Source of the DNA: Burkholderiales bacterium
GTDB taxonomy: Bacteria > Pseudomonadota > Gammaproteobacteria > Burkholderiales > JAEUMW01
DNA: 10,024 bases
Direction of reading: 5' to 3'
Assembly (NCBI GenBank): GCA_016791285.1
Contig: JAEUMX010000289.1
Span: 1 to 10,024 of the forward strand
Made by a program: the position numbers and the translations under genes. This document shows positions 1-10,024 of the stretch, one piece after another. Below the pieces are notes generated by a model, which saw only the letters and a list, made by a program, of their open reading frames with translations, was not told the origin of the DNA and made no database searches. Position 1 is the first letter of the stretch; each line of letters starts with the position of its first letter.

Positions 1-276
1 GGGCAGCGGGGCGCACTCGACGTCCACCACCGGGCCATGGATTTGGCAGACGGTCCCGATCTTTACGCCCAGCTCCGCGAGGCGAAGGAGCGCCTCGATC
101 TTCGCGGAGAACTGGTTGAGGCAATCACGCGAACAGAAGTAATAGGTGCTCCCGGCGTGCGTGAGCGTACCCGCTGCGCCTCCCGGGTCCACCGCCATGC
201 CGCAGACCGGATCGGTCGCCATCGCGAATCTCGGTGCGGTGCCGGGCATCCCGGCCGGTTGCTCACCTGTTGCCAT
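1..276 (-). CDS. atpD: YHS domain fused to the N-terminus of an F1 ATP synthase beta subunit (partial, runs off left edge)
   Basis: The first 92 residues are visible. Residues about 22-65 form a YHS domain, seen as DPVCGMAVDP, then HAGSTYYFCS, CLNQF and a K-IEALL tail; YHS domains are small metal-binding modules common in copper ATPases and other metal proteins. After a short linker, residues about 71-92 read IGTVCQIHGPVVDVE followed by APLP. This matches the first beta strands of F1 beta subunits (G-x-[IV]-x-x-[IV]-x-G-x-V-V-D-V). The start is the ATG at 276, 22 bp after the stop of the DUF3141 gene; the Shine-Dalgarno is weak, and in-frame ATGs at codons 10 and 19 are alternatives that would keep the YHS domain. 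The preceding PHA-type genes fit an 'alternate' (N-ATPase type) operon, in which atpD is normally the first ATPase gene. The YHS call is firm; the beta call rests on about 20 residues, and the Walker motifs lie outside the window. Confidence 0.7.
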   Translation of the reverse strand, partial: MATGEQPAGMPGTAPRFAMATDPVCGMAVDPGGAAGTLTHAGSTYYFCSRDCLNQFSAKIEALLRLAELGVKIGTVCQIHGPVVDVECAPLP

Positions 277-298: not shown

Positions 299-2071
299 TC
301 AGCCCTTCCCGTAGAGCAATCGGAACGCGTGCTCGCGCATGGCGTCGCCAAGTTGGCGTTGCCTGTCGAGCCCTGCGGAGACCTGCCGGGCGGCATCGCG
401 CTCCGCGGCGAGAAACGGATTGTCGGGGCGAGCAGGCCGTCTCTGCTGGTGCACCCACTCCGCCCAGGCCGGAAGCCCGCTCATCCATGGGTTGACCCGC
501 TCGGAGAACGCGTACCGGTTCACGCGCATAGGATGCAGCCACTTGACGAGGTCTGCGCTCCACGGCGCCGCCGCCATCTTTACCCAGGGGCTGAGAAACG
601 TGGCGTAGAGCAGCTCGTTGAATTCGGACACGTCACGCGCCTTCTCGAACTGATCTCGCGGGTAATCGAAACGGATGTCCTCCACGCGCCGTCGTTCGAA
701 CGACACGGAATACTGTGGCCTGCGACAATCGGGGTCGCCGGTCGGGTTGTCGATCTTCATCTCGTACAGACCGGGCTTGAGCGCCTCCAGCTCCTCGACG
801 CTTTCCAGGATGGCCCGGTGCTCCAGCCGCGCGACGCTGGCGGAGACGAAGATGCCCAGATGACCGACGTGCTGGTTCAGCAGGTACACGATTCGTTGGC
901 CCGCATCCTCCAGGGATTGCGTCGTGGGGTACACGGCTGGAATCCAGTTCAGCGCCTGGTGGGGCGGGGTGATGATGTCACCACTGGACGCGAAGATGAC
1001 GAGCGGGTTGCGGATTCGCCTGAGGTCGGCCACGCAGCGGTCGCAGATCCGCATCTCGCCCTGCTCGAGCTTGTTGCCGACGAACAGGTTCTCCACGATG
1101 GCGACGATCTCTTCGCGACCGAGGAAATAGAAGCCGCTCCACCAGCGCTCGAAGTCGAGGAACCGCTCGCGCCCCGCGTCGACGTTTGCAAACAGCTCGT
1201 AGTACTTCCCCCACAGGCTGTGGGCGGGGTTCAGGCTTTCGAAATTCTGCACCAGCCAAGCGCCATCGAACTTCCCGTTGCCGAGGTCCGACAGGAAATG
1301 GGAAAGCCACGTTCCGCCGACCAGGCCGCCCGTGATGCGCATCGGGTTCGCGTCGGACGATCCGGCCCAATAGGAGAGCGGCGAGCCGTTGAGCACGGCG
1401 GGTCCCGCGAGACCGGTGCAGTCGGCGGCGAGAAGCGTAATCGCCCAACCGGCCTGGCAGTTGCCGTAAAGCACGGGGGCCTGGCCGCCGTGGCGCCGGC
1501 TTACTTCCTCGAAGAAGCGCCGCAACGCGTGGAGCACGTCCGCGAGCGTCTGGCCCGGGCAGGGTTGCGGGAAGAAGACCACGAAATACACCGGATGACC
1601 TTCGTGCATCGCGATCCCGACCTCGGAGTCGCGCTTGAAACCCCCGATGCCGGGACCATGTCCGGCCCGCGGATCGACCACGATCACGGGTCGCGCGGCT
1701 TCGTCGACACAGTCCTCAAGGCAGGCATCACCCACTGCCGAGATGCGGAGCAGCGCGTAGTTGGCGGGTCGCTCGAAAGTCCGGGCGTCGACGACGGTCT
1801 CGTATTCGAAGCCGAGCAGCGGCGGCAATCCCGCGGCTTCGTGCGCGAGCATGTCGTTGGCTCGTTCGCGCAGCGTGTCGGAGAAGAGTACGCTGCGCTG
1901 CCAAAAGTCGATCTGGTACTCGAGTGAGTCGTTGGCGAGGCCCATAGTTGTCCAGTTCGGAGTCGACCTATTCGCCACCGTCTCGGTCCCAATGGATTTT
2001 TGCGGCAGGGACGGCTCTTGTGTCTTCCGCGCCGAACGTGCAACGCGCAGGGCCTCGCTGGTCTTTGTCAT
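299..2071 (-). CDS. DUF3141 domain protein, PhaC-like alpha/beta-hydrolase with Cys nucleophile
   Basis: A 590-residue protein of the DUF3141 family, related to PHA synthases and found near PHA genes. Residues 51-75 (EYQIDFWQRSVLFSDTLRER) are a characteristic N-terminal segment. The alpha/beta-hydrolase core follows: VIVVDPRAGHGPGIGGF at 129-145, the nucleophile elbow GNCQAG at 203-208 with Cys205, a candidate catalytic Asp365 in ASSGDIITPP, and a candidate His404 in HVGHLG. Together these form a Cys-Asp-His set as in PHA synthases rather than the Ser of lipases. There is no signal peptide, so it is cytoplasmic, perhaps granule-associated. An earlier in-frame start exists at 2158. I prefer the ATG at 2071 because GAAGGGA lies about 6 nt upstream and the extra 29 residues overlap the preceding small ORF. 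It sits between phaC and the YHS-atpD gene with short gaps, which suggests one transcript. Its precise reaction (polymerase, depolymerase or thioesterase-like) is not known to me. Confidence 0.85.
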   Translation of the reverse strand: MTKTSEALRVARSARKTQEPSLPQKSIGTETVANRSTPNWTTMGLANDSLEYQIDFWQRSVLFSDTLRERANDMLAHEAAGLPPLLGFEYETVVDARTFERPANYALLRISAVGDACLEDCVDEAARPVIVVDPRAGHGPGIGGFKRDSEVGIAMHEGHPVYFVVFFPQPCPGQTLADVLHALRRFFEEVSRRHGGQAPVLYGNCQAGWAITLLAADCTGLAGPAVLNGSPLSYWAGSSDANPMRITGGLVGGTWLSHFLSDLGNGKFDGAWLVQNFESLNPAHSLWGKYYELFANVDAGRERFLDFERWWSGFYFLGREEIVAIVENLFVGNKLEQGEMRICDRCVADLRRIRNPLVIFASSGDIITPPHQALNWIPAVYPTTQSLEDAGQRIVYLLNQHVGHLGIFVSASVARLEHRAILESVEELEALKPGLYEMKIDNPTGDPDCRRPQYSVSFERRRVEDIRFDYPRDQFEKARDVSEFNELLYATFLSPWVKMAAAPWSADLVKWLHPMRVNRYAFSERVNPWMSGLPAWAEWVHQQRRPARPDNPFLAAERDAARQVSAGLDRQRQLGDAMREHAFRLLYGKG

Positions 2072-2108
2072 GGCATTCCCTTCGTCGTGAGCACGGAAGA
2101 GCGGACCC

Positions 2109-2222
2109 TCACCTCGAAGAGCCGCTGAGACCCTTTCCGAGAAACTCCTTCGGCCCAACCGTCCCGCTCCGGCCGGGGTCCATCGCTTCGAACACTATGA
2201 GGATGTTCTTGGCTTTCGACAC
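2109..2222 (-). CDS. Possible 37-residue small protein with an EF-hand-like loop
   Basis: After the phaC stop, the minus strand has a near-perfect Shine-Dalgarno AAGGAGGT (2231-2238), 8 nt, then GTG at 2222 opening a 37-codon frame that ends at 2109. The frame reads on through FEAMDPGRSGTVGPKEFL. Residues 15-26 resemble the 12-residue EF-hand loop: Asp at loop position 1, Ser at 5, Gly at 6, Val at 8 and Glu at 12, flanked by F-E-A-M and E-F-L. Loop position 3 is Gly instead of Asp/Asn/Ser, so calcium binding would be weak or absent. It lies 55 bp after phaC and 37 bp before the DUF3141 gene, in the same direction. Nothing known to me matches it. The strong ribosome site is the best evidence that it is translated; it could be a real microprotein or a coupling device for the next gene. 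Confidence 0.45.
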   Translation of the reverse strand: MSKAKNILIVFEAMDPGRSGTVGPKEFLGKGLSGSSR

Positions 2223-2277: not shown

Positions 2278-4161
2278 CTAGTCCTGAAATACGTATGCAC
2301 CTGGTGCCGGCCCCAGTGCCGAGAATCCTTGCTCTGGCGCCCCGATCTGCGGTGGGCGCACCCGCTCGGGCGCGGAGTGCGCGGTGAGCCAGCGCTGCCA
2401 TTCGGGCCACCAGGAGCCCTCGGTGGTGGGGACTTGTGCCGCCCACGTGTCGGCGTCGACGTACCGTTCGCCCTCGCGCTGCGTCGTCACCTGGTAGCGC
2501 CGTCGCGGATGTCCGGGCTCGCTCACCACGCCTGCATTGTGACCACCGTTGGTGAGCAGGAACGTGACCTCGGTGTCGGCAAGGAGGTGCAGCTTGTACA
2601 CCGACTTCCAGGGGGCGACATGGTCCTCCGTGGTGGCCACCGCGAAGATCGGCACGCGGATGTCGCCGATCACCACGGGGCGCCCCTCGACCTTGTAGCG
2701 ACCCTCCGCGAGATCGTTGTCGAGGAAGAGAGAGCGCAACACCTCGGAGTGCATCGCGTAGGGCGCGCGGGTCACATCGGCATTCCACGCCATCAGATCG
2801 CTCATGCCCTGGCGCTCGCCGAGCAGGTACTCGCGCATCATCTTCGACCAGATGAGATCGTTGGAGCGCAGCAACTGGAAGGCACCGGCGAACTGCGGGC
2901 CGTCGAGGTAGCCCTGGTCCCACATGATGTCTTCGATGTAGGCGACCTGGCTCTCGTCGATGAACGGGAGCAACTCGCCCGGTTCGCTGAAGTCGAGCTC
3001 CGTGGTAAAGAGCGTGAGCGTGCGGATCCGATCCTCGCCATCGCGCGCCATCGCCGCCGCGGCCGTGGTGAGCAGGATCCCGCCGAAACAATAGCCGACC
3101 GCGTGCGGCTCGACGGCTGGCACGATGGCTTCGACCACGCGCAGCGCCGCGCGCACACCGAGCCGCCGATAGTCGTCCATGCTCGAGTCCCGGTCCTCGG
3201 GGCCGGGATTTTTCCACGAGATCATGAACACCGTGTGCCCCTGCCCCACCAGATAGCGGACCATGGAGTTCTCGGGCGAGAGGTCCAGGATGTAGTACTT
3301 CATGATCGGCGCCGGTACGATGAGGATCGGCTCGGGATGGACCGCCTGCGTGGTCGGCGTGTACTGAATGAGCTCGATCAGGCGGTTGCGGAACACCACC
3401 TGGCCGGGCGTCACCGCCACGTCGCGTCCCACCGCGAAGGCCTCGGTGCCCACCGGCTTGCGGCCGGCGACCGTGCGCTCCACATCCTGGATCAGGTTGA
3501 AGAATCCGCGCATGAAGTTGAGGCCGCCGGACATCGCGGTCGCCTTCAGCACCTCGGGATTGGTCGCCACGAAATTCGACGGCGACATCACGTCCAGGAA
3601 TTGGCGCGCTATAAAGCTCACCGACTGCTCGTTCTGCGTCGACATGCCGCGGATGTGCGTGGTGGCGTTCCACCACCATTGCTGATTCAGGAGGAACCAC
3701 TGGTAGAAGAAATTGAACGGCGGCTGCTGCCAGTCCGGACTTCTGAAGCGCCTATCCTGGTGCAAAGGCTCGATGCACGGCGGCGTGCCCGGCTGCACCG
3801 CAGCCCGCGCCGACCACACGGCGAATCGAGCAGCCTTGCGCCACGCCTTCTGCGCGAGCTCGGCCTGCCTGCCCGGCGCCAGCGCCAGGTTGGCGAGCCA
3901 GTCCAGATACGCCAGGATTGCCGCGGCCGGCGACACACCGAAGGTCATGCGCCCGAGCACGGCGTGCACGAAGCGGTCGATGGTGCGCCCGCTCGCAGGA
4001 AAGGTGATCGCGTCGGTGATCTCGCGCCGCTCCTCGACAGGGATCGTCGGCGTGGGCAGTCGGGGCTCGACGCGACGCTCCCCAGGGATGTCGGCTGGAC
4101 CCGATTTCGGAACCGCCGGCGTGGCGGTCAGGGGAGCGGGTTTGGGGACGAAGTCGGGCAT
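2278..4161 (-). CDS. phaC: Poly(3-hydroxyalkanoate) synthase, class I-like
   Basis: A 627-residue PHA synthase, which polymerises (R)-3-hydroxyacyl-CoA into storage polyester at the granule surface. Residues 1-55 are a Pro-rich, low-complexity extension. The PhaC N-terminal domain follows (QPPFNFFYQWFLLNQQWWW at 146-164; SPSNFVATNPEVL at 193-205; GLNFMRGFFNL at 213-223), then the catalytic alpha/beta-hydrolase domain. The PhaC box is GYCFGG at 356-361 with nucleophile Cys358. The general-base residues are Asp513 in TTEDHVAPW and His541 in NGGHNAG; the Asp-His spacing of 28 is the same as in the Cupriavidus necator enzyme. The size fits class I (about 560-630), and no PhaE or PhaR gene is adjacent. 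The start is supported by AGGAGGT 7 nt upstream of the ATG. It leads a co-directional group with the small ORF, the DUF3141 gene and YHS-atpD. Confidence 0.95.
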   Translation of the reverse strand: MPDFVPKPAPLTATPAVPKSGPADIPGERRVEPRLPTPTIPVEERREITDAITFPASGRTIDRFVHAVLGRMTFGVSPAAAILAYLDWLANLALAPGRQAELAQKAWRKAARFAVWSARAAVQPGTPPCIEPLHQDRRFRSPDWQQPPFNFFYQWFLLNQQWWWNATTHIRGMSTQNEQSVSFIARQFLDVMSPSNFVATNPEVLKATAMSGGLNFMRGFFNLIQDVERTVAGRKPVGTEAFAVGRDVAVTPGQVVFRNRLIELIQYTPTTQAVHPEPILIVPAPIMKYYILDLSPENSMVRYLVGQGHTVFMISWKNPGPEDRDSSMDDYRRLGVRAALRVVEAIVPAVEPHAVGYCFGGILLTTAAAAMARDGEDRIRTLTLFTTELDFSEPGELLPFIDESQVAYIEDIMWDQGYLDGPQFAGAFQLLRSNDLIWSKMMREYLLGERQGMSDLMAWNADVTRAPYAMHSEVLRSLFLDNDLAEGRYKVEGRPVVIGDIRVPIFAVATTEDHVAPWKSVYKLHLLADTEVTFLLTNGGHNAGVVSEPGHPRRRYQVTTQREGERYVDADTWAAQVPTTEGSWWPEWQRWLTAHSAPERVRPPQIGAPEQGFSALGPAPGAYVFQD

Positions 4162-4512: not shown

Positions 4513-4866
4513 CTAGGGAGTGCAGGGCGTCTGCATGATCAGGTGGTGCTCGCCCATCATCTGATCCATCATCATGTCCATGAGCTTCTGATGCTCCGCG
4601 ATCCAGTCCTTCTGCTCCTGCATGGTCATGTCAGCGCGCGGCTTCATCGCCTGCATCTTTCCCATGGTCTCGCTCATCATCTTCATGTGCTCGCTCATGA
4701 GCCGGCGCCGCTCGGCGCCCTTCGCCGCCTCGGCCGCGGCGAGCTTCTGCTTCGCCTCCTGGGCTTGCCGAACCAACTGCTGTTGCACGATGTCGGCTGC
4801 GGCAAGGCCGACGGCTGGCATCGTAAGGATCGTGCTCAGCGCGCTGGCAATGATTTTCTGCTTCAT
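4513..4866 (-). CDS. Small exported Met/His-rich protein, possibly copper-binding
   Basis: A 117-residue protein with an N-terminal signal peptide: K2 and K4, hydrophobic core IIASALSTILTMPAVGLA, likely cleavage near residue 23. A Gln/Ala/Lys-rich, coiled-coil-like stretch follows (about 26-57). The C-terminal half is crowded with Met, including HMKMM, MGKMQAM, MDMMMDQMM and then GEHH. I count 18 Met in all, 16 of them in the last 62 residues. Such Met/His clusters are typical of periplasmic Cu(I)/Ag(I)-binding proteins, but I cannot assign a named family. Its ATG overlaps the kinase stop as ATGA, and its ribosome site (AGGAG, 9 nt upstream) lies inside the end of the kinase gene, so translation is probably coupled. 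Role as a metal buffer or an accessory to the sensor is inference from composition and context. Confidence 0.8.
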   Translation of the reverse strand: MKQKIIASALSTILTMPAVGLAAADIVQQQLVRQAQEAKQKLAAAEAAKGAERRRLMSEHMKMMSETMGKMQAMKPRADMTMQEQKDWIAEHQKLMDMMMDQMMGEHHLIMQTPCTP

Positions 4867-6404
4867 GGCTGACTACTCCTGATTCGCGGATCACAAGTTG
4901 AACGGCTTGGCACCTGCACTGGCTGCAGTTTTGCAGTCTGCAGGCGGAAACGAAAAACGGTGCCCCTGCCGGGGGCGCTTTCGACGGAAATGACGCTGCC
5001 GTGCAGCTCCACGATCCGTTTGACGATGGCGAGGCCCAGCCCTGCGCAGTCGGCCTGTCCGCCGCGGCCTTGCTCGCCGCGGAAGAAGCGATCGAAGATG
5101 TGGGGCAGACTCTCCTCTGGTATGCCGACGCCGGTGTCCGATACCTGGACGGCGACCTGTCCGCTTCGGTGGTCGAGTGTCGCCGTGATGGTGACGATGC
5201 CCCCCGAGGGCGTGTAGCGGAGTGCGTTCTCGACGAGATTTTCGAGGGCGCGTTCGACGAGAGCGCGATCTGCGTGCACGAGAGGCAGGGGTTCGGATAT
5301 CGTCGTGGCAAGCCGGATCCCCCGCTCCCCGGCTACCAAGGCGAACTTCCTGCTGATCGCCTCCGCGACCTCGGAGATCCTGAACGGCTCTGGCGATGTC
5401 TTGGCTTCCGGCGCATCGAGCTTTGCGAGCTCAAAAAGCCGGTCGACGAGCTTGCTCAGGTGGCCCGCCTCCTGGGTGGCGATCTTGCAGTACTCTCGTT
5501 GCTCTTCCGCTGTCAGGTCACGCGTCGTCGCGACGGTCTCCAGGTAACCGAGAAGGGAGGCGAGCGGAGTGCGCAGATCATGGGAAACGTTCGCGAAGAA
5601 CTCGCGCCGCGACGCATCGCTCTTCCTGAGCTCATCCAACTGCCCGACCATGCGCATGGCCATCTGGTTGAATGTCTGTCCGAGCCGCCCGACCTCGTCG
5701 CGAGCCGAGAGCCGGGCGGGCGGATCGAGCTCGGGTACCTCTCGAAACCCGTCGGCGCGGAATTTGTCCATCGCAGCCGCGAGGCGGTGCAGCGGTCGCG
5801 TCAGCAGATTCACCATCAGCCAGCCGGCGAGGATGGCGAACGCGACACCGCTCGCGATTAACCACATACCCTCCCGGATCGTATACGCAGACCTCAGGGT
5901 TGCGGCGTCAGCCTCGTGCTCCTCCCCGCGAAGGACGACATAGAGGAATCCACGCCTGCCGTCGTCGCGCGTGAGCTCGGCCACGGAGAAGATCTTCGGA
6001 CGAGCCGGATCTGCTGGATCGGTGCCGAGGACTGGCAGTCTATCCGCATCGTCCAGGAGGCGGCGGACGGGGGCGAGATCGACGCGGCGCGCCTTCACGC
6101 GCTCGGCCGCCTCGGAACTACCCACCACGACCCCGGTCTCGTCGAGCAGGTAAACCGCGATGTGCGGATTGATCTCCGTCAGCCGCGCGAGCTTCGCTGC
6201 GAGCGTGTTCGCGTCCAGGGCGCCAGCAGCTAGAGCAGTGCCATCCCCTACCAACTGACCGGCGAGCGGCTTGTTGATGCCCTGGCTGACCTGCAGGTGA
6301 TAGGTCTCGTGCGACGATCGAAGCATGACGGCGAACATGATTCCCAGTGCAACGCAAATGCCCGTGAGCAGCGCGACCAGCTTTCCCGTTAGGCTGCCAA
6401 ACAT
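4863..6404 (-). CDS. Membrane sensor histidine kinase, partner of the adjacent OmpR-type regulator
   Basis: A 513-residue inner-membrane kinase of a two-component system. Transmembrane segment 1 lies at about 9-29, a periplasmic sensor region at 30-178 and transmembrane segment 2 at about 180-201. A HAMP linker follows (about 202-260, RPLHRLAAAMDKF and DEVGRLGQTFNQM). The dimerisation/phosphoacceptor domain has His275 in FFANVSHDLRTPLASLLGYL. The ATPase domain shows the N box (ENLVENALRYTP, 388-399), G1 (DTGVGIP, 423-429), an F box (IFDRFFRG, 436-443) and G2 (GLGLAI, 455-460). The periplasmic region has no Met/His-rich copper motif that I can see, so the signal is unknown. It starts 3 nt after the regulator stop (TGAGCGATG) and ends in an ATGA overlap with the Met-rich gene, so the three genes form a tight operon. 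Confidence 0.95.
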   Translation of the reverse strand: MFGSLTGKLVALLTGICVALGIMFAVMLRSSHETYHLQVSQGINKPLAGQLVGDGTALAAGALDANTLAAKLARLTEINPHIAVYLLDETGVVVGSSEAAERVKARRVDLAPVRRLLDDADRLPVLGTDPADPARPKIFSVAELTRDDGRRGFLYVVLRGEEHEADAATLRSAYTIREGMWLIASGVAFAILAGWLMVNLLTRPLHRLAAAMDKFRADGFREVPELDPPARLSARDEVGRLGQTFNQMAMRMVGQLDELRKSDASRREFFANVSHDLRTPLASLLGYLETVATTRDLTAEEQREYCKIATQEAGHLSKLVDRLFELAKLDAPEAKTSPEPFRISEVAEAISRKFALVAGERGIRLATTISEPLPLVHADRALVERALENLVENALRYTPSGGIVTITATLDHRSGQVAVQVSDTGVGIPEESLPHIFDRFFRGEQGRGGQADCAGLGLAIVKRIVELHGSVISVESAPGRGTVFRFRLQTAKLQPVQVPSRSTCDPRIRSSQP

Positions 6405-6407
6405 CGC

Positions 6408-7136
6408 TCAGACCTGTTGGCGCTCCGGCTCGGCGAACCGGTAACCCAGACCCCATACTGTCAAAATGAACCGTGGGCGGGCAGGGTCCTCCTCGAGCTT
6501 GTTGCGCAGCCGGTTGATGTGGGACTTCACGGTATCCTCGTAGCCGGAGTAGTCGTAGCCCCATACGAGGTCGAGCAGCTGCGAGCGCGTGAAGGGTCTA
6601 CCCGGGTGCTGGGCGAAGACGAGCAGGAGGTCGAACTCCCGCACCGTCAGCGGAACCTCGGCACCGCCCAGCATCACCTTCCGGTGGGAAACGTCGATCA
6701 TCAATTCTCCGAACTGGAGAAAATCCGCGGGCCCGCCTTGTTCGTTGCCGGCAAATACGTATCGCCGCCGCAGGAGCGCCTTCACCCGAGCGACCAGCTC
6801 GGCGACGCTGAAGGGTTTGACGAGATAATCGTCCGCGCCCATATCCAGCCCCGTCACCTTGTCGGCCTCGGTCGACTTCGCGGTGAGCATCAGGATGGGT
6901 GTGAACACGCCCTTGCTCCGCAGACGGCGACAGATCTCCAAACCGTCGATCCCAGGCAGCATCACGTCGAGGATGATCAGATCGTATTTCTTCGACTCTG
7001 CCGCTGCGAGGCCCGCATAACCATCGAACGCGAGCGTCACGTCCCGCGTCACGGCCTTGACATGCAGGCGGACGAGATTCGCGATGTTCTCGTGATCTTC
7101 GATCACCAGCACCCCGTGCGTCGTGGACGGCCCCAT
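6408..7136 (-). CDS. OmpR/PhoB-family response regulator
   Basis: A 242-residue DNA-binding response regulator. The receiver domain (about 8-122) has the acidic pair Glu13-Asp14, the phosphorylation site Asp57 in IILDVMLPG, Thr85 in MLTAK and Lys107 in VKPF. The winged-helix effector domain (about 138-235) shows LTVREFDLLLVFAQHPG, the recognition helix region YEDTVKSHINRLRNKLE and the final hairpin VWGLGYRF. The frame is open further upstream to a TTG at 7223, but that adds 29 residues unlike the family, so I place the start at the ATG at 7136, where the receiver fold begins directly. The ribosome site there is weak; a strong AGGAGG further upstream serves another frame (see the leader ORF). 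It is cotranscribed with the kinase. A CGTTAC direct repeat at 7827-7843 is a candidate binding site. Confidence 0.95.
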   Translation of the reverse strand: MGPSTTHGVLVIEDHENIANLVRLHVKAVTRDVTLAFDGYAGLAAAESKKYDLIILDVMLPGIDGLEICRRLRSKGVFTPILMLTAKSTEADKVTGLDMGADDYLVKPFSVAELVARVKALLRRRYVFAGNEQGGPADFLQFGELMIDVSHRKVMLGGAEVPLTVREFDLLLVFAQHPGRPFTRSQLLDLVWGYDYSGYEDTVKSHINRLRNKLEEDPARPRFILTVWGLGYRFAEPERQQV

Positions 7137-7296
7137 TTCGCAATTGTCTGCTATGCGTTCAGCGACACCCGCGAGGGATAACCGCTTCGCACCACAAACA
7201 TCCTCCTTTCCGGCCGCGCGCAAGCCCTCGGCTCCCTACCGGCCCATCGGCGCATTGACCCTACCTCGAGCTCGCGTTGACCACTCCTTGCTCGAG
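7137..7296. other. Gap between the repeat-protein gene and the response regulator
   Basis: 160 bp holding the possible leader ORF and, on the plus strand, a direct repeat CGCATTGACC (7251-7260) and CGCGTTGACC (7273-7282) spaced 22 bp, two helical turns. I see no confident promoter or U-tract terminator, so the regulator may be transcribed from the promoter upstream of the 131-residue gene. Confidence 0.4.
7151..7195 (-). CDS. Possible 14-codon leader peptide upstream of the response regulator
   Basis: The minus strand has AAAGGAGGA (7201-7209), and 6 nt after its AGGAGG core comes GTG at 7195, opening a frame VVRSGYPSRVSLNA that stops at TAG (7151). An in-frame ATG at 7201 overlaps the Shine-Dalgarno and is too close to use it. 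The stop lies 14 nt before the regulator ATG, whose own ribosome site is poor, so translation of the leader could couple to the regulator. No start codon in the regulator frame lies at a useful distance from this strong site. It may also be a chance ORF. Confidence 0.3.
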   Translation of the reverse strand: MVRSGYPSRVSLNA

Positions 7297-7692
7297 TCAC
7301 GGCTTATGGGTTGGGGGATGGTATTCCCCATCGCTCGAGCGCAACTGGTGCTCCAGCTCGTGTGCCCGCTTCTCTTCTTCCTTTGTCGGCGCCTTGCCCG
7401 CTTTCTTCACCGGATCATGGTCATGGCTTGGATTTTCGCCATCGCTCGCACGCAACCCGTGCTCCACTTCGTGCTCCTGCTTCTTGGCCGCGGGGGTGGG
7501 CGTGCTTGGTTTCGGCTGCTTCACGCCCTTCAATTCGCTCTCGCTCGGGTGACCGCCATCGGATTGCCGCATCTGGTGCTCCAGTTCCTTGTCCGTCGGC
7601 GCTGCGAAGACCGCAGGCGGACTGCTCAGCGCCGTCGCGAACACGGCTGCGATGGCGAGCACGGACGGTTTGATGATGAAATTCGTCGACAT
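7297..7692 (-). CDS. Exported 131-residue protein with three EHxLRxSDG repeats, family not recognised
   Basis: A signal peptide occupies residues 1-30: IIKPSVLAIAAVFATALSS ending in AVFA-A, with likely cleavage after Ala30. The mature part is highly charged and contains three copies of one motif: ELEHQMRQSDGGHPS at 36-50, EVEHGLRASDGENPSHDHDP at 75-94 and ELEHQLRSSDGEYHP at 112-126. The conserved His sits at 39, 78 and 115. The linkers are Lys/Pro/Ala-rich (KPSTPTPAAKK; KKAGKAPTK). Acidic and His residues could bind metal, but that is inference. The start at 7692 is chosen because GAGGAGA lies about 8 nt upstream and the signal peptide begins there; the frame stays open upstream to 7941 without recognisable content. 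It precedes the regulator-kinase genes by 160 bp and lies downstream of the FNR-type box and the CGTTAC repeat, so it may be their target. Confidence 0.75.
   Translation of the reverse strand: MSTNFIIKPSVLAIAAVFATALSSPPAVFAAPTDKELEHQMRQSDGGHPSESELKGVKQPKPSTPTPAAKKQEHEVEHGLRASDGENPSHDHDPVKKAGKAPTKEEEKRAHELEHQLRSSDGEYHPPTHKP
7328..7590 (-). repeat. Three DNA copies encoding the EHxLRxSDG motif
   Basis: On the plus strand, related stretches begin with CCATCG at about 7328, 7439 and 7556 and run about 35 bp each (for example GCAACTGGTGCTCCAGCTCG in the first). They are the reverse complement of the three protein repeats. Spacings of 111 and 117 bp are multiples of three. The nucleotide similarity suggests internal duplication within the gene. 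Confidence 0.7.
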
Positions 7693-7826
7693 GTTCGGTA
7701 TCTCCTCAAGATGTTGATTCCGCCGCGCCTGACGCAGGTGCAGTAGGCGCCGGAGAAAAGCGCCACGTCTCCGTTCCACGAAATGCATTACCGTGTGCTC
7801 TTCCAGTTGCAGCTTCGCAGACAAAA

Positions 7827-7874: not shown

Positions 7875-8699
7875 TCATTCGATCAATCCGTGCTTGGTCT
7901 GAGAAACCTGCCGCCACGGTGCGGCGGATTCCGCATGGCACTTGAGGCTCACCATCTCACGCAGTGTCTCCGCCTCGGCGAGAAACGCCTCCACGACGAC
8001 CGGATCGAACTGGATACCCGACACCTTCGCGATTGCGGCGCTCGCGTCGTCGAACCCCATGCCTCGGCGATACGGGCGGTCAGAGGTCATCGCATCGAGC
8101 GTGTCGATCACGGCGAAGAGCCGCGCCCCGAAGTCGATGTCCGCTCCCGCGAGCCGCCGGGGATAGCCGCTCCCGTCGAAGCGCTCCTCGTGGCTCAGCA
8201 CGATTTCCGCGGCGCCTTTCATGAACGGGACTCCCGAGAGGATGGAGTAGCCGATTTGCGGATGGGTGCGCATTAGACGCCATTCCTCGTCAGTCAGCGA
8301 ATCTCGCTTGAGCAGGATTGAGTCGGGAATCCCGATCTTGCCCAAGTCATGCAGCAGCGCTCCCCAGTAGATCTGGCGAAGCGCATCTGGATCCTGGATG
8401 AAGCGCCGCGCGAGAACCAACGTATGGCAGGCCACCCGCTTCGAATGCAATCCGGTCTCGACCTCCCGAGCGTCGAGCGCCGCGGCGAGCGCTTCGGCTA
8501 ATGCGAGATAGGCCAACTCCCGTTCGTCATGCAGGGCCTGGCAGTCCTTCTGTCCGAGGAAGCACCCCTCGCAGCAGTAGCTTTCTCCGACACGCAAGAA
8601 GGTGGATCCATCGATCGGCGAACCGCAGTGATGGCAAAAAGGGGTACTCACCGGCGCGCCGTTGACGCCCGAAGGGTTCGGATCGCGGAATGACTCCAT
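7875..8699 (-). CDS. HD-GYP protein with an N-terminal Cys-rich metal-binding-type module
   Basis: A 274-residue probable cyclic-di-GMP phosphodiesterase, soluble, with no signal peptide. Residues 21-53 hold FCHHCGSPI, then SYCCEGCFL and a further Cys53. This CxxC...CCxGC pattern resembles the N-terminal metal-binding region of CcoI/FixI-type copper ATPases. The HD-GYP domain (about 65-250) shows Glu81 and His85, the HD pair His117-Asp118 in LLHDLGKIGIPD, His146 in MRTHPQIG, HEERFDGSGYP at 170-180 and Asp199 in VIDTLDAMTSDRPYR. The usual HHE is HEE here, so one metal ligand of the trinuclear type is Glu. I chose the ATG at 8699 because GAGGA lies 6 nt upstream. The alternative ATG at 8729 overlaps the cusA stop as ATGA and adds 10 residues. 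Tight linkage to cusA suggests that it couples metal stress to c-di-GMP. Confidence 0.88.
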   Translation of the reverse strand: MESFRDPNPSGVNGAPVSTPFCHHCGSPIDGSTFLRVGESYCCEGCFLGQKDCQALHDERELAYLALAEALAAALDAREVETGLHSKRVACHTLVLARRFIQDPDALRQIYWGALLHDLGKIGIPDSILLKRDSLTDEEWRLMRTHPQIGYSILSGVPFMKGAAEIVLSHEERFDGSGYPRRLAGADIDFGARLFAVIDTLDAMTSDRPYRRGMGFDDASAAIAKVSGIQFDPVVVEAFLAEAETLREMVSLKCHAESAAPWRQVSQTKHGLIE

Positions 8700-8725
8700 G
8701 GCCGATCCTCGCGGAGATTGTTGTT

Positions 8726-10024
8726 TCATTGCCCGATCGACCCGGCAGCGGGCTCCGCGCTTGCCGAAGCCGGCTGGCGGCGAAGAGCGGCCTCCTTTAC
8801 GAGGGCATAGATCGCAGGGATCACGATCAGGGTGAGCAGCGTGGATGAGACCATGCCTCCCACCATCGGCGCCGCGATCCGCCGCATCACCTCGGAGCCG
8901 GTTCCGGTGCCCCACATGATCGGCAACAAGCCGGCCATGATGGCGACGACGGTCATCATCTTCGGACGCACCCGCTCCACCGCCCCTTCCATTACCGCTT
9001 CATAGAGATCGGCGACGCTCGGCTTGCCGCCCTCCGCTGCACGCTTTGCCGTGATCGCCTCCCAGGCGTGATCGAGGTAGATGAGCATCACCACCCCGGT
9101 CTCGGCGGCCACCCCGGCGAGCGCGATGAAACCTACCGCCACCGCCACGCTCATGTTGTAGCCCAGCCACCACATGAGCCAAACGCCACCTACCAGGGCA
9201 AACGGCACCGAGAGCATGACGATCAAGGTCTCGCTGAGCCGCCTGAAGTTGAAGTAAAGGAGCACGAAGATGATGAGCAGGGTGAGGGGTACGACCACCG
9301 CGAGCTTCTGCTTCGCGCGCTCCATGTACTCGAATTGGCCGCTCCAGCTCGCGTAATAGGCGGGTGGGAATTTCACCTGCTCGCGCACCGCTTTCTGTGC
9401 GTCTCTGACATATCCTCCGATGTCCCGGTCGCGGATATCGACGTAGATGTATGCAGTCAGCAGGGCGTTCTCGGTACGGATCGCGGGGGGCGCTTGTATA
9501 AGACTGACACGGGCAAGCTGCCCCAAGGGAATCATGCTGCCGTTCATGACCGGTACCAGGACCTGCGTGGCGATCTGTTGCGGATCGCTGCGCAGTTCGC
9601 GCGGATAGCGCACGTTGACGCCGTAGCGCTCGAGCCCCTCCACGGTGGTTGTCACCATTTCGCCCCCTAAGGCGGTGCCGATCACCTCCTGAAGCTCGCC
9701 CACACTCAGGCCATAGCGCGCCAGTGCCATGCGATCCGGCTCGATGTCGAGGTAATAGCCACCCGTGACGCGCTCGGCATAGGCGCTGGTGGTGCCTGGC
9801 ACCGTTTTCACCACTGTTTCGATCTCCTTCGCCAGCGTCTCGATCTCCGTCAGATTCTTGCCGAACACTTTGATGCCGATGGGCGTACGGATACCGGTGG
9901 CAAGCATGTCGATGCGTGCCTTGATCGGCATGGTCCAGGCGTTCGATACGCCCGGGATCTGCACCGCCTTGTCCATCTCGGCAATCAGCTTGTCCGTGGT
10001 CATGCCCGGGCGCCACTGATCCTC
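8726..10024 (-). CDS. cusA: CusA-type heavy-metal RND efflux pump, C-terminal 432 residues (5' end outside window)
   Basis: The frame is open to the right edge, so the first residues (DQWRPGMTTDKLIAEMD) are internal. Family features in order, numbered from the first visible residue: RIDMLATGIRTPIGIKVFG (37-55), GGYYLDIEPDR (88-98), ALGGEMVTTTVEGLERYGVN (118-137), SGQFEYMERAKQKL (228-241), then five transmembrane segments at about 241-259, 266-286, 292-317, 356-372 and 386-408. GFIALAGVAAETGVVMLIYL (298-317) and RPKMMTVVAIMAGLLPIMWG (353-372) are strong signatures of the HME-RND family, closest to the Cu(I)/Ag(I) CusA/SilA branch. It would work as the inner-membrane trimer with a CusB adaptor and a CusC channel, which should lie to the right of the window. 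The Met in RIDM and in GGEMV fits a Met-based relay, but the equivalent of RYGM in E. coli CusA, as I recall it, is RYGL here. It overlaps or closely precedes the HD-GYP gene. Confidence 0.93.
   Translation of the reverse strand, partial: EDQWRPGMTTDKLIAEMDKAVQIPGVSNAWTMPIKARIDMLATGIRTPIGIKVFGKNLTEIETLAKEIETVVKTVPGTTSAYAERVTGGYYLDIEPDRMALARYGLSVGELQEVIGTALGGEMVTTTVEGLERYGVNVRYPRELRSDPQQIATQVLVPVMNGSMIPLGQLARVSLIQAPPAIRTENALLTAYIYVDIRDRDIGGYVRDAQKAVREQVKFPPAYYASWSGQFEYMERAKQKLAVVVPLTLLIIFVLLYFNFRRLSETLIVMLSVPFALVGGVWLMWWLGYNMSVAVAVGFIALAGVAAETGVVMLIYLDHAWEAITAKRAAEGGKPSVADLYEAVMEGAVERVRPKMMTVVAIMAGLLPIMWGTGTGSEVMRRIAAPMVGGMVSSTLLTLIVIPAIYALVKEAALRRQPASASAEPAAGSIGQ

Follow-up and report, generated by a model that had tools for sequence, protein, structure and literature searches.

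A recurrent fusion of a YHS domain to the N-terminus of an F1 ATPase beta subunit, with a possible role in sensing soft metals

At one edge of the window, by which is meant the whole 10,024-nucleotide stretch of Burkholderiales DNA analysed here, a YHS domain is joined in a single reading frame to the beginning of an F1 ATPase beta subunit. The domain fusion is real, it is recurrent, and as far as the literature searches reach it is undescribed. The open-access literature searched, which leaves most subscription papers uncovered, held no description of a YHS domain fused to the beta subunit of an ATP synthase or N-ATPase, and a term search of a paper on ATP synthase evolution that mentions N-ATPases 187 times (PMC4154653) did not find YHS. 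What might such a domain be doing on the catalytic subunit of a rotary motor? The reading tentatively preferred here is that it senses soft metals on the crown of F1 and tunes an ion pump during metal stress. The parts of the gene that lie in the window are as follows:

1..222, minus strand: 5' end of the YHS–F1 beta fusion gene, which runs past the window edge (open frame and start of the homologue P0002)
103..216, minus strand: YHS domain (PF04945, 38.1 bits), with putative ligands Asp 213-211, Cys 204-202, Cys 135-133 and Cys 123-121
70..129, minus strand: single helix linking the YHS domain to the beta barrel (AlphaFold2 of P0001, helix 50-69, block pLDDT about 87-94; helix 32-51 in the P0002 model)
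1..57, minus strand: opening strands of the beta-barrel (crown) domain of F1 beta (gapless alignment to P0002 residues 56-74; PF02874 begins at P0002 residue 58; model strands 74-80 and 83-88)

The frame is stop-free over 92 codons (276 to 1, minus strand) and leads from the YHS domain through a 20-residue helix into the first F1 beta strands. A sequence-only reading had claimed just such a continuous frame, and the open frame, the Pfam match of the YHS domain and a homologue that spans the junction all confirm it. That reading also placed the start at the in-frame ATG at 276-274, but the gene probably starts at residue 19 (ATG at 222-220), because P0002 begins there and 68 of the 72 fused relatives with the complete motif have a Met at this point. 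The frame contains no ATG, GTG or TTG between residue 29, which belongs to the YHS domain, and residue 83, which already belongs to the first beta strands; the beta part therefore lacks such a start codon of its own. But how can a beta subunit be recognised from so short a piece? The last ~20 residues of the frame, IGTVCQIHGPVVDVECAPLP, resemble the first F1 beta strands; taken alone they match no ATP synthase family in Pfam even at E 10, being too short, and from the window alone the call therefore rested on pattern reading. The full-length homologue supplies the rest. Of 254 candidates scored in a protein search with the 92 residues, five reached E 0.001 or better: four other YHS proteins and P0002, a fused beta subunit. 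P0002 has 506 residues, combines YHS with a complete F1 beta and is 89% identical to the window frame over 80% of the 92 residues, across the junction (46 of 50 residues in the YHS–linker part, 20 of 24 in the beta part). Its YHS domain (3-39) is followed by the beta-barrel (58-123), nucleotide-binding (180-393) and C-terminal domains (PF02874, PF00006, PF22919), with the Walker A motif GGAGVGKT at 200 and GERIRE, holding the catalytic glutamate of the GERxRE motif, at 231. The F1 beta motifs that the earlier reading expected in the continuation are thus present in this homologue, the window itself covering the first strands only.

How widespread is the fusion? Of 7999 candidates scored in a search with full-length P0002, 7973 reached E 1e-100 or better. 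By motif, 76 of the best 120 of these 7973 carry the YHS domain (72 with the whole motif, four whose predicted start lies beyond the first Cys), whereas the other 44 lack it. A second search with the divergent P0126 gave 7920 matches, from which the best 120 were likewise taken, and the combined set comprises 150 different beta proteins. Conservation in a set selected by motif is circular for the motif itself, so the recount was made by extension length alone, counting the residues before the first conserved beta glycine with a threshold of 45. An N-terminal extension of at least 45 residues is found in 84 of the 150 beta subunits, which are the tops of two ranked lists, so the fractions describe this beta branch and not all alternate ATPases. 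All three YHS cysteines (C plus CxxxC) are kept in 77 of these 84, and the fusion whose spread the first reading had wished to see checked is clearly recurrent. Five of the remaining long extensions (P0022, P0026, P0055, P0068 and P0147) keep CxxxC but are predicted to begin no earlier than the first Cys; the last two (P0138 and P0142) are unrelated to YHS. Among the 66 shorter proteins four show a trace of the domain: its first half in P0131, its second half in P0141 and an apparent tail in P0088 and P0089. One entry of the count, PAVC, looks like a pattern slip in P0017, where the sequence is DPIC. Few rows are named; names on fused rows include Betaproteobacteria (P0026, with a cut start), Burkholderiaceae, Gammaproteobacteria and Nitrospiria metagenome-assembled genomes (MAGs) and one named species, Noviherbaspirillum agri (P0053), and names on unfused rows include Rhodocyclaceae, Nitrospira and Porticoccus litoralis.

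A scan of genome contigs with the 92 residues returned no fusion, its only hit being a MAG titled Acidimicrobium in which a short YHS frame lies beside a P-type-ATPase-like frame. A beta-like match of E 1e-120 or better occurs in 161 of the 198 genomes from the phylum of genome G001, those listed being about 50% identical; eight loci were read from these matches, and the YHS motif is absent from all seven that have a Walker A frame, the eighth (L033) being without an exact Walker A. None of 78 matching PLSDB plasmid records covers 80% of the fused N-terminal query, and the viral contigs scanned gave no relative.

The YHS domain itself is recognised with confidence. PF04945 matches residues 21-58 of the window frame with 38.1 bits against a gathering score of 30.3 (E 1.6e-9), and the putative metal ligands D22, C25, C48 and C52 are invariant in all 45 rows of an alignment made of fused proteins picked for it. 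Nine columns of the YHS region reach 95% in the motif-selected set (n = 75, hence circular for the motif), and much of the remaining domain is variable. An AlphaFold2 model of the 92 residues, built with 45 sequences, has a mean pLDDT of 85.5 and shows a beta hairpin, a helix at 50-69 and beta strands. The model of P0002 has the same N-terminal layout (YHS, helix 32-51); its catalytic domain is poor (mean pLDDT 61 at full length), and only the first 160 residues were used. In these models the helix continues into the first beta strand, which suggests mechanical coupling of the YHS domain to the crown. The first beta strand also carries a Cys at P0002 position 59 (GTVC or GTIC) in 21 of 72 motif-complete fused proteins and in one of 44 unfused proteins.

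Could the domain simply hold a permanent metal? A structural zinc finger that carries no signal, and instead supports the folding, assembly or stability of the F1 crown or of the place where the crown touches the peripheral stalk, is a possible if somewhat unlikely explanation. The closest solved folds of the YHS part, all of them weak matches, are L24e ribosomal proteins, the TRASH zinc finger and toluene monooxygenase; the metal of the first two is taken as structural, and the rigid junction of YHS and beta barrel predicted by the models would suit such a role. Against it stand close relatives that have no YHS domain (P0059, and an unfused group that includes Nitrospira names), from which it follows that the domain is not needed for assembly in general. 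In addition, we know of no comparable structural part on other F1 beta subunits.

In a 45-row tree the fused betas and nearby unfused ones, including those of Sulfuricella and Legionella fallonii, form one branch of 34 rows with 100/100 support and a long stem, separate from 10 other plasmid-borne betas of N-type-ordered operons. The tree was rooted on E. coli AtpD, and with this single ordinary beta as root it cannot by itself place the branch nearer to N-type or F-type enzymes. Within the branch fused and unfused rows are intermixed, with at least eight changes in the 45-row tree and 10 in a quick tree built from 125 beta cores, so the YHS domain has been gained and/or lost repeatedly. A single clade of fused rows was rejected (AU p 7.9e-50), bearing in mind that the fused set was named after an earlier tree and that start-site errors may blur the labels. 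The unfused P0059 is 84% identical to P0002 and placed beside P0018, which is likely a recent loss of YHS; P0095 is another unfused sister. Mispredicted starts could inflate the count of losses. The part before the conserved glycine has two prevailing lengths, 55 residues in 49 rows and 58 in 11, and the domain may thus have been acquired more than once.

To which type of ATPase does this beta subunit belong? The fused branch is probably alternate and N-type-like, the label being unsure because the AtpD cut-off is passed as well. P0002 scores 604 bits on TIGR03305, below its cut-off of 752, and 589 on the ordinary AtpD model TIGR01039, above its cut-off of 463; other betas also remain below 752 on TIGR03305 (P0079 599, P0126 578, P0081 574). 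A beta subunit from a Novosphingobium operon of N-type order behaves in the same manner. It reaches only 622 on TIGR03305, which shows that this cut-off is strict, and its 636 on TIGR01039 passes the AtpD cut-off, so that passing it does not exclude an N-type enzyme. In the nearest unfused operons (Sulfuricella and Legionella) the order is beta, epsilon or an unnamed small gene, AtpZ/I, a, c, a delta-type stalk gene, alpha and gamma, and the YHS motif was not found within the stretches examined of Sulfuricella pSCD and L. fallonii plasmid II. The plasmid operons offer some further observations. Those of L006 and L007 have one AtpZ/AtpI gene and no separate subunit I, nine of the 10 others list AtpZ/AtpI together with subunit I (one of the nine has an unnamed gene where the second would be) and the remaining one has subunit I only. 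An oleate hydratase gene lies downstream, near the alternate ATPase operon, on three plasmids (L008, L013 and L018). The idea that a 78-residue gene before atpD in Sulfitobacter is an unfused YHS gene was found to be wrong.

The rest of the window gives the fusion gene a setting. All of its named neighbours share the minus strand:

299..2158, minus strand: DUF3141 gene, distantly PhaC-like (PF11339, 695 bits; TIGR01836 27 bits, far below cut-off), start uncertain
2278..4161, minus strand: PhaC-like polyhydroxyalkanoate synthase (PF07167; TIGR01838 530 bits against a cut-off of 623)
4513..4866, minus strand: Met-rich protein of 117 residues, 18 of them Met, with an apparent signal peptide judged by eye and without a Pfam match
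4863..6404, minus strand: sensor histidine kinase (HAMP, HisKA, HATPase_c; TIGR01386 198 bits against a cut-off of 293)
6408..7223, minus strand: OmpR-type response regulator (PF00072, PF00486), start uncertain
8726..10024, minus strand: RND efflux pump of the copper/silver CusA type, C-terminal part only (E. coli CusA 469 bits, ZneA 206 bits)

The DUF3141 gene lies directly upstream of the fusion gene, with a gap of 22 or 76 nucleotides depending on the start. The partial pump has 218 of 415 aligned residues identical and keeps Met at CusA positions 672, 755 and 1009, methionines with a role in copper passage, the other such methionines lying outside the part in the window. Together with the Met-rich protein, which adjoins the two-component pair and is possibly a periplasmic copper binder, this pump points to copper, and the arrangement could be chance. 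The kinase is below the heavy-metal cut-off of TIGR01386 and is thus not recognised as a metal sensor. Two smaller genes complete the picture. The protein encoded at 7297-7770 (minus strand) has the repeats ELEHQMRQSDG, EVEHGLRASDG and ELEHQLRSSDG and no Pfam family above cut-off. An HD-domain protein at 7875-8741 (minus strand) has an N-terminal CHHCG...YCCEGC ribbon weakly like PF12156 (E 0.24, 12.6 bits, cut-off 27) and may be another metal-binding fusion in the same gene set.

Is there a more general link between alternate ATPases and metal pumps? Among 12 plasmid loci, a small sample of unfused betas in alternate-type operons without a background control, a heavy-metal RND or copper P-type pump lies within 9-12 kb per side in three (Legionella, Methylocystis and Novosphingobium) and in nine it does not, so a general link is not upheld. 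Multidrug models give the highest scores for the RND pump next to the Sulfuricella operon, though all stay below cut-off, and an adaptor close to the operon of Methylovirgula belongs with an ABC transporter. L. fallonii, which is among the two closest relatives on plasmids, carries an unfused operon with DUF3141 and CusA/CzcA genes next to it. In a plasmid island of Halomonas KO116 (L012), DUF3141 and PhaC-like genes related to those of the window occur together with a copper P-type ATPase, NhaA and acetate kinase, as well as two stand-alone YHS proteins (4822-5175 and 21363-21563); stand-alone genes of this kind are a possible source of the fused domain.

These stand-alone proteins also bear on a second explanation, in which YHS is a docking or delivery module that ties the ATPase to metal exporters or to YHS/CopA proteins, or passes metal on, leaving catalysis unchanged. 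When the YHS part was compared with plasmids, the closest matches (40 listed of 3280 records) were mostly genes annotated as heavy-metal P-type ATPases; the Halomonas stand-alone proteins sit in a copper island, and three copies per F1 would suit binding by avidity. The explanation is nevertheless unlikely: no partner is known, and the RND pump CusA obtains most of its metal in the periplasm, a different compartment from the cytosol in which F1 lies. A passive sink, soaking up soft metals to protect the catalytic subunit or the cell, is highly unlikely; the putative ligands are intact and abundant complexes would offer many sites, but a separate small YHS protein would do equally well, and it would be strange to find a sink attached to an alternate ATPase. 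That the frame is an artefact, a frame-shift, a chimeric assembly or a chance open frame uniting two genes, might be suspected from a window that ends inside the gene with only ~20 residues of beta visible, and is refuted by the recurrence of the same domain order in 77 of 150 listed protein clusters, from several sources and in part on long contigs. The longest contig is 103 kb for P0002, 222 kb for P0042, 655 kb for P0065, 1.04 Mb for P0069 and 97 kb for P0053 of Noviherbaspirillum agri.

The sensor reading, our tentative preference, would place the domain in an unusual position. The regulators known for F1, such as epsilon, zeta and IF1, target the rotor or the catalytic sites, and to our knowledge none works via a small-ion sensor on the crown of beta; if metal-switched, the fused enzyme would be, as far as we know, the first rotary motor with a metal sensor built into its catalytic subunit. 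How could it work? Once F1 is assembled, three YHS domains would sit on the crown, with a stiff helix connecting each of them to the first beta-barrel strand. A rise of cytosolic soft metal, for example Cu(I) or Ag(I), would lead them to bind metal, and the metal-bound domains would alter the crown or the way it meets the peripheral stalk. This change would turn up the ATP-driven ion pump, or alter its coupling, and the membrane would stay energised while the CusA-type pump exports the metal. The narrower version, in which Cu(I) or Ag(I) on the three YHS caps turns on ATP-driven pumping and so restores the gradient spent on copper efflux, is doubtful.

Several observations speak for the sensor: the fusion recurs with its putative ligands kept and with much of the remaining domain variable, the models give a confident YHS domain whose helix continues into the beta strand, the window contains a CusA-type pump and a Met-rich protein, and L. 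fallonii has CusA/CzcA genes near its operon. The reading is favoured by joining two published observations as well. A Mycobacterium phlei adenylyl cyclase with a YHS domain is activated specifically by 1-10 µM Cu2+, its catalytic domain alone is not, and one Asp and three Cys were proposed as ligands (PMC4626032). The first reading's suggestion that the ATPase might respond to copper gains indirect support from this cyclase and from the CusA-type pump in the window. The N-type ATPase of Burkholderia pseudomallei is proton-coupled with a c17 ring and was proposed by its authors to act as a proton pump; according to the same 2017 source, what N-type ATPases do in the cell was still largely unexplored (PMC5376962). 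What argues against a sensor is that the fusion is missing in close relatives (with P0059 so near to P0002, the ATPase can evidently do without YHS), that metal pumps accompany only three of the 12 plasmid loci read, that the copper neighbours in the window could be chance, that the kinase is not a recognised metal sensor and that the N-type label is unsure. A recurrent, ligand-keeping module on the catalytic subunit offers a concrete way to connect soft-metal stress with ATP-driven ion pumping that can be tested, and it would let control of a rotary ATPase by metal be probed directly.

How does the fused enzyme compare with known systems? It resembles N-type F1Fo ATPases in that P0002 scores slightly higher on TIGR03305 than on AtpD, and its nearest unfused relatives have beta-first operons with AtpZ/I and a large delta-type stalk gene; it differs from N-type enzymes in its N-terminal YHS domain, in its own long-stemmed branch and in falling below the TIGR03305 cut-off while passing that of AtpD. 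The closest plasmid-borne betas, on Sulfuricella denitrificans pSCD and L. fallonii plasmid II, are 73% and 69% identical over the beta core, but they begin at that core and the YHS domain is absent. Heavy-metal P-type ATPases share a related YHS domain and a metal context; they move the metal themselves, whereas F1Fo moves protons or sodium. A functional precedent is the M. phlei cyclase (PMC4626032), in which YHS is likewise joined by a short linker to a catalytic domain and whose set of one Asp and three Cys is kept here. Its YHS domain is C-terminal and its activation by Cu2+ was measured, whereas the domain described here is N-terminal, sits on a subunit of a rotary ATPase and has been read from sequence.
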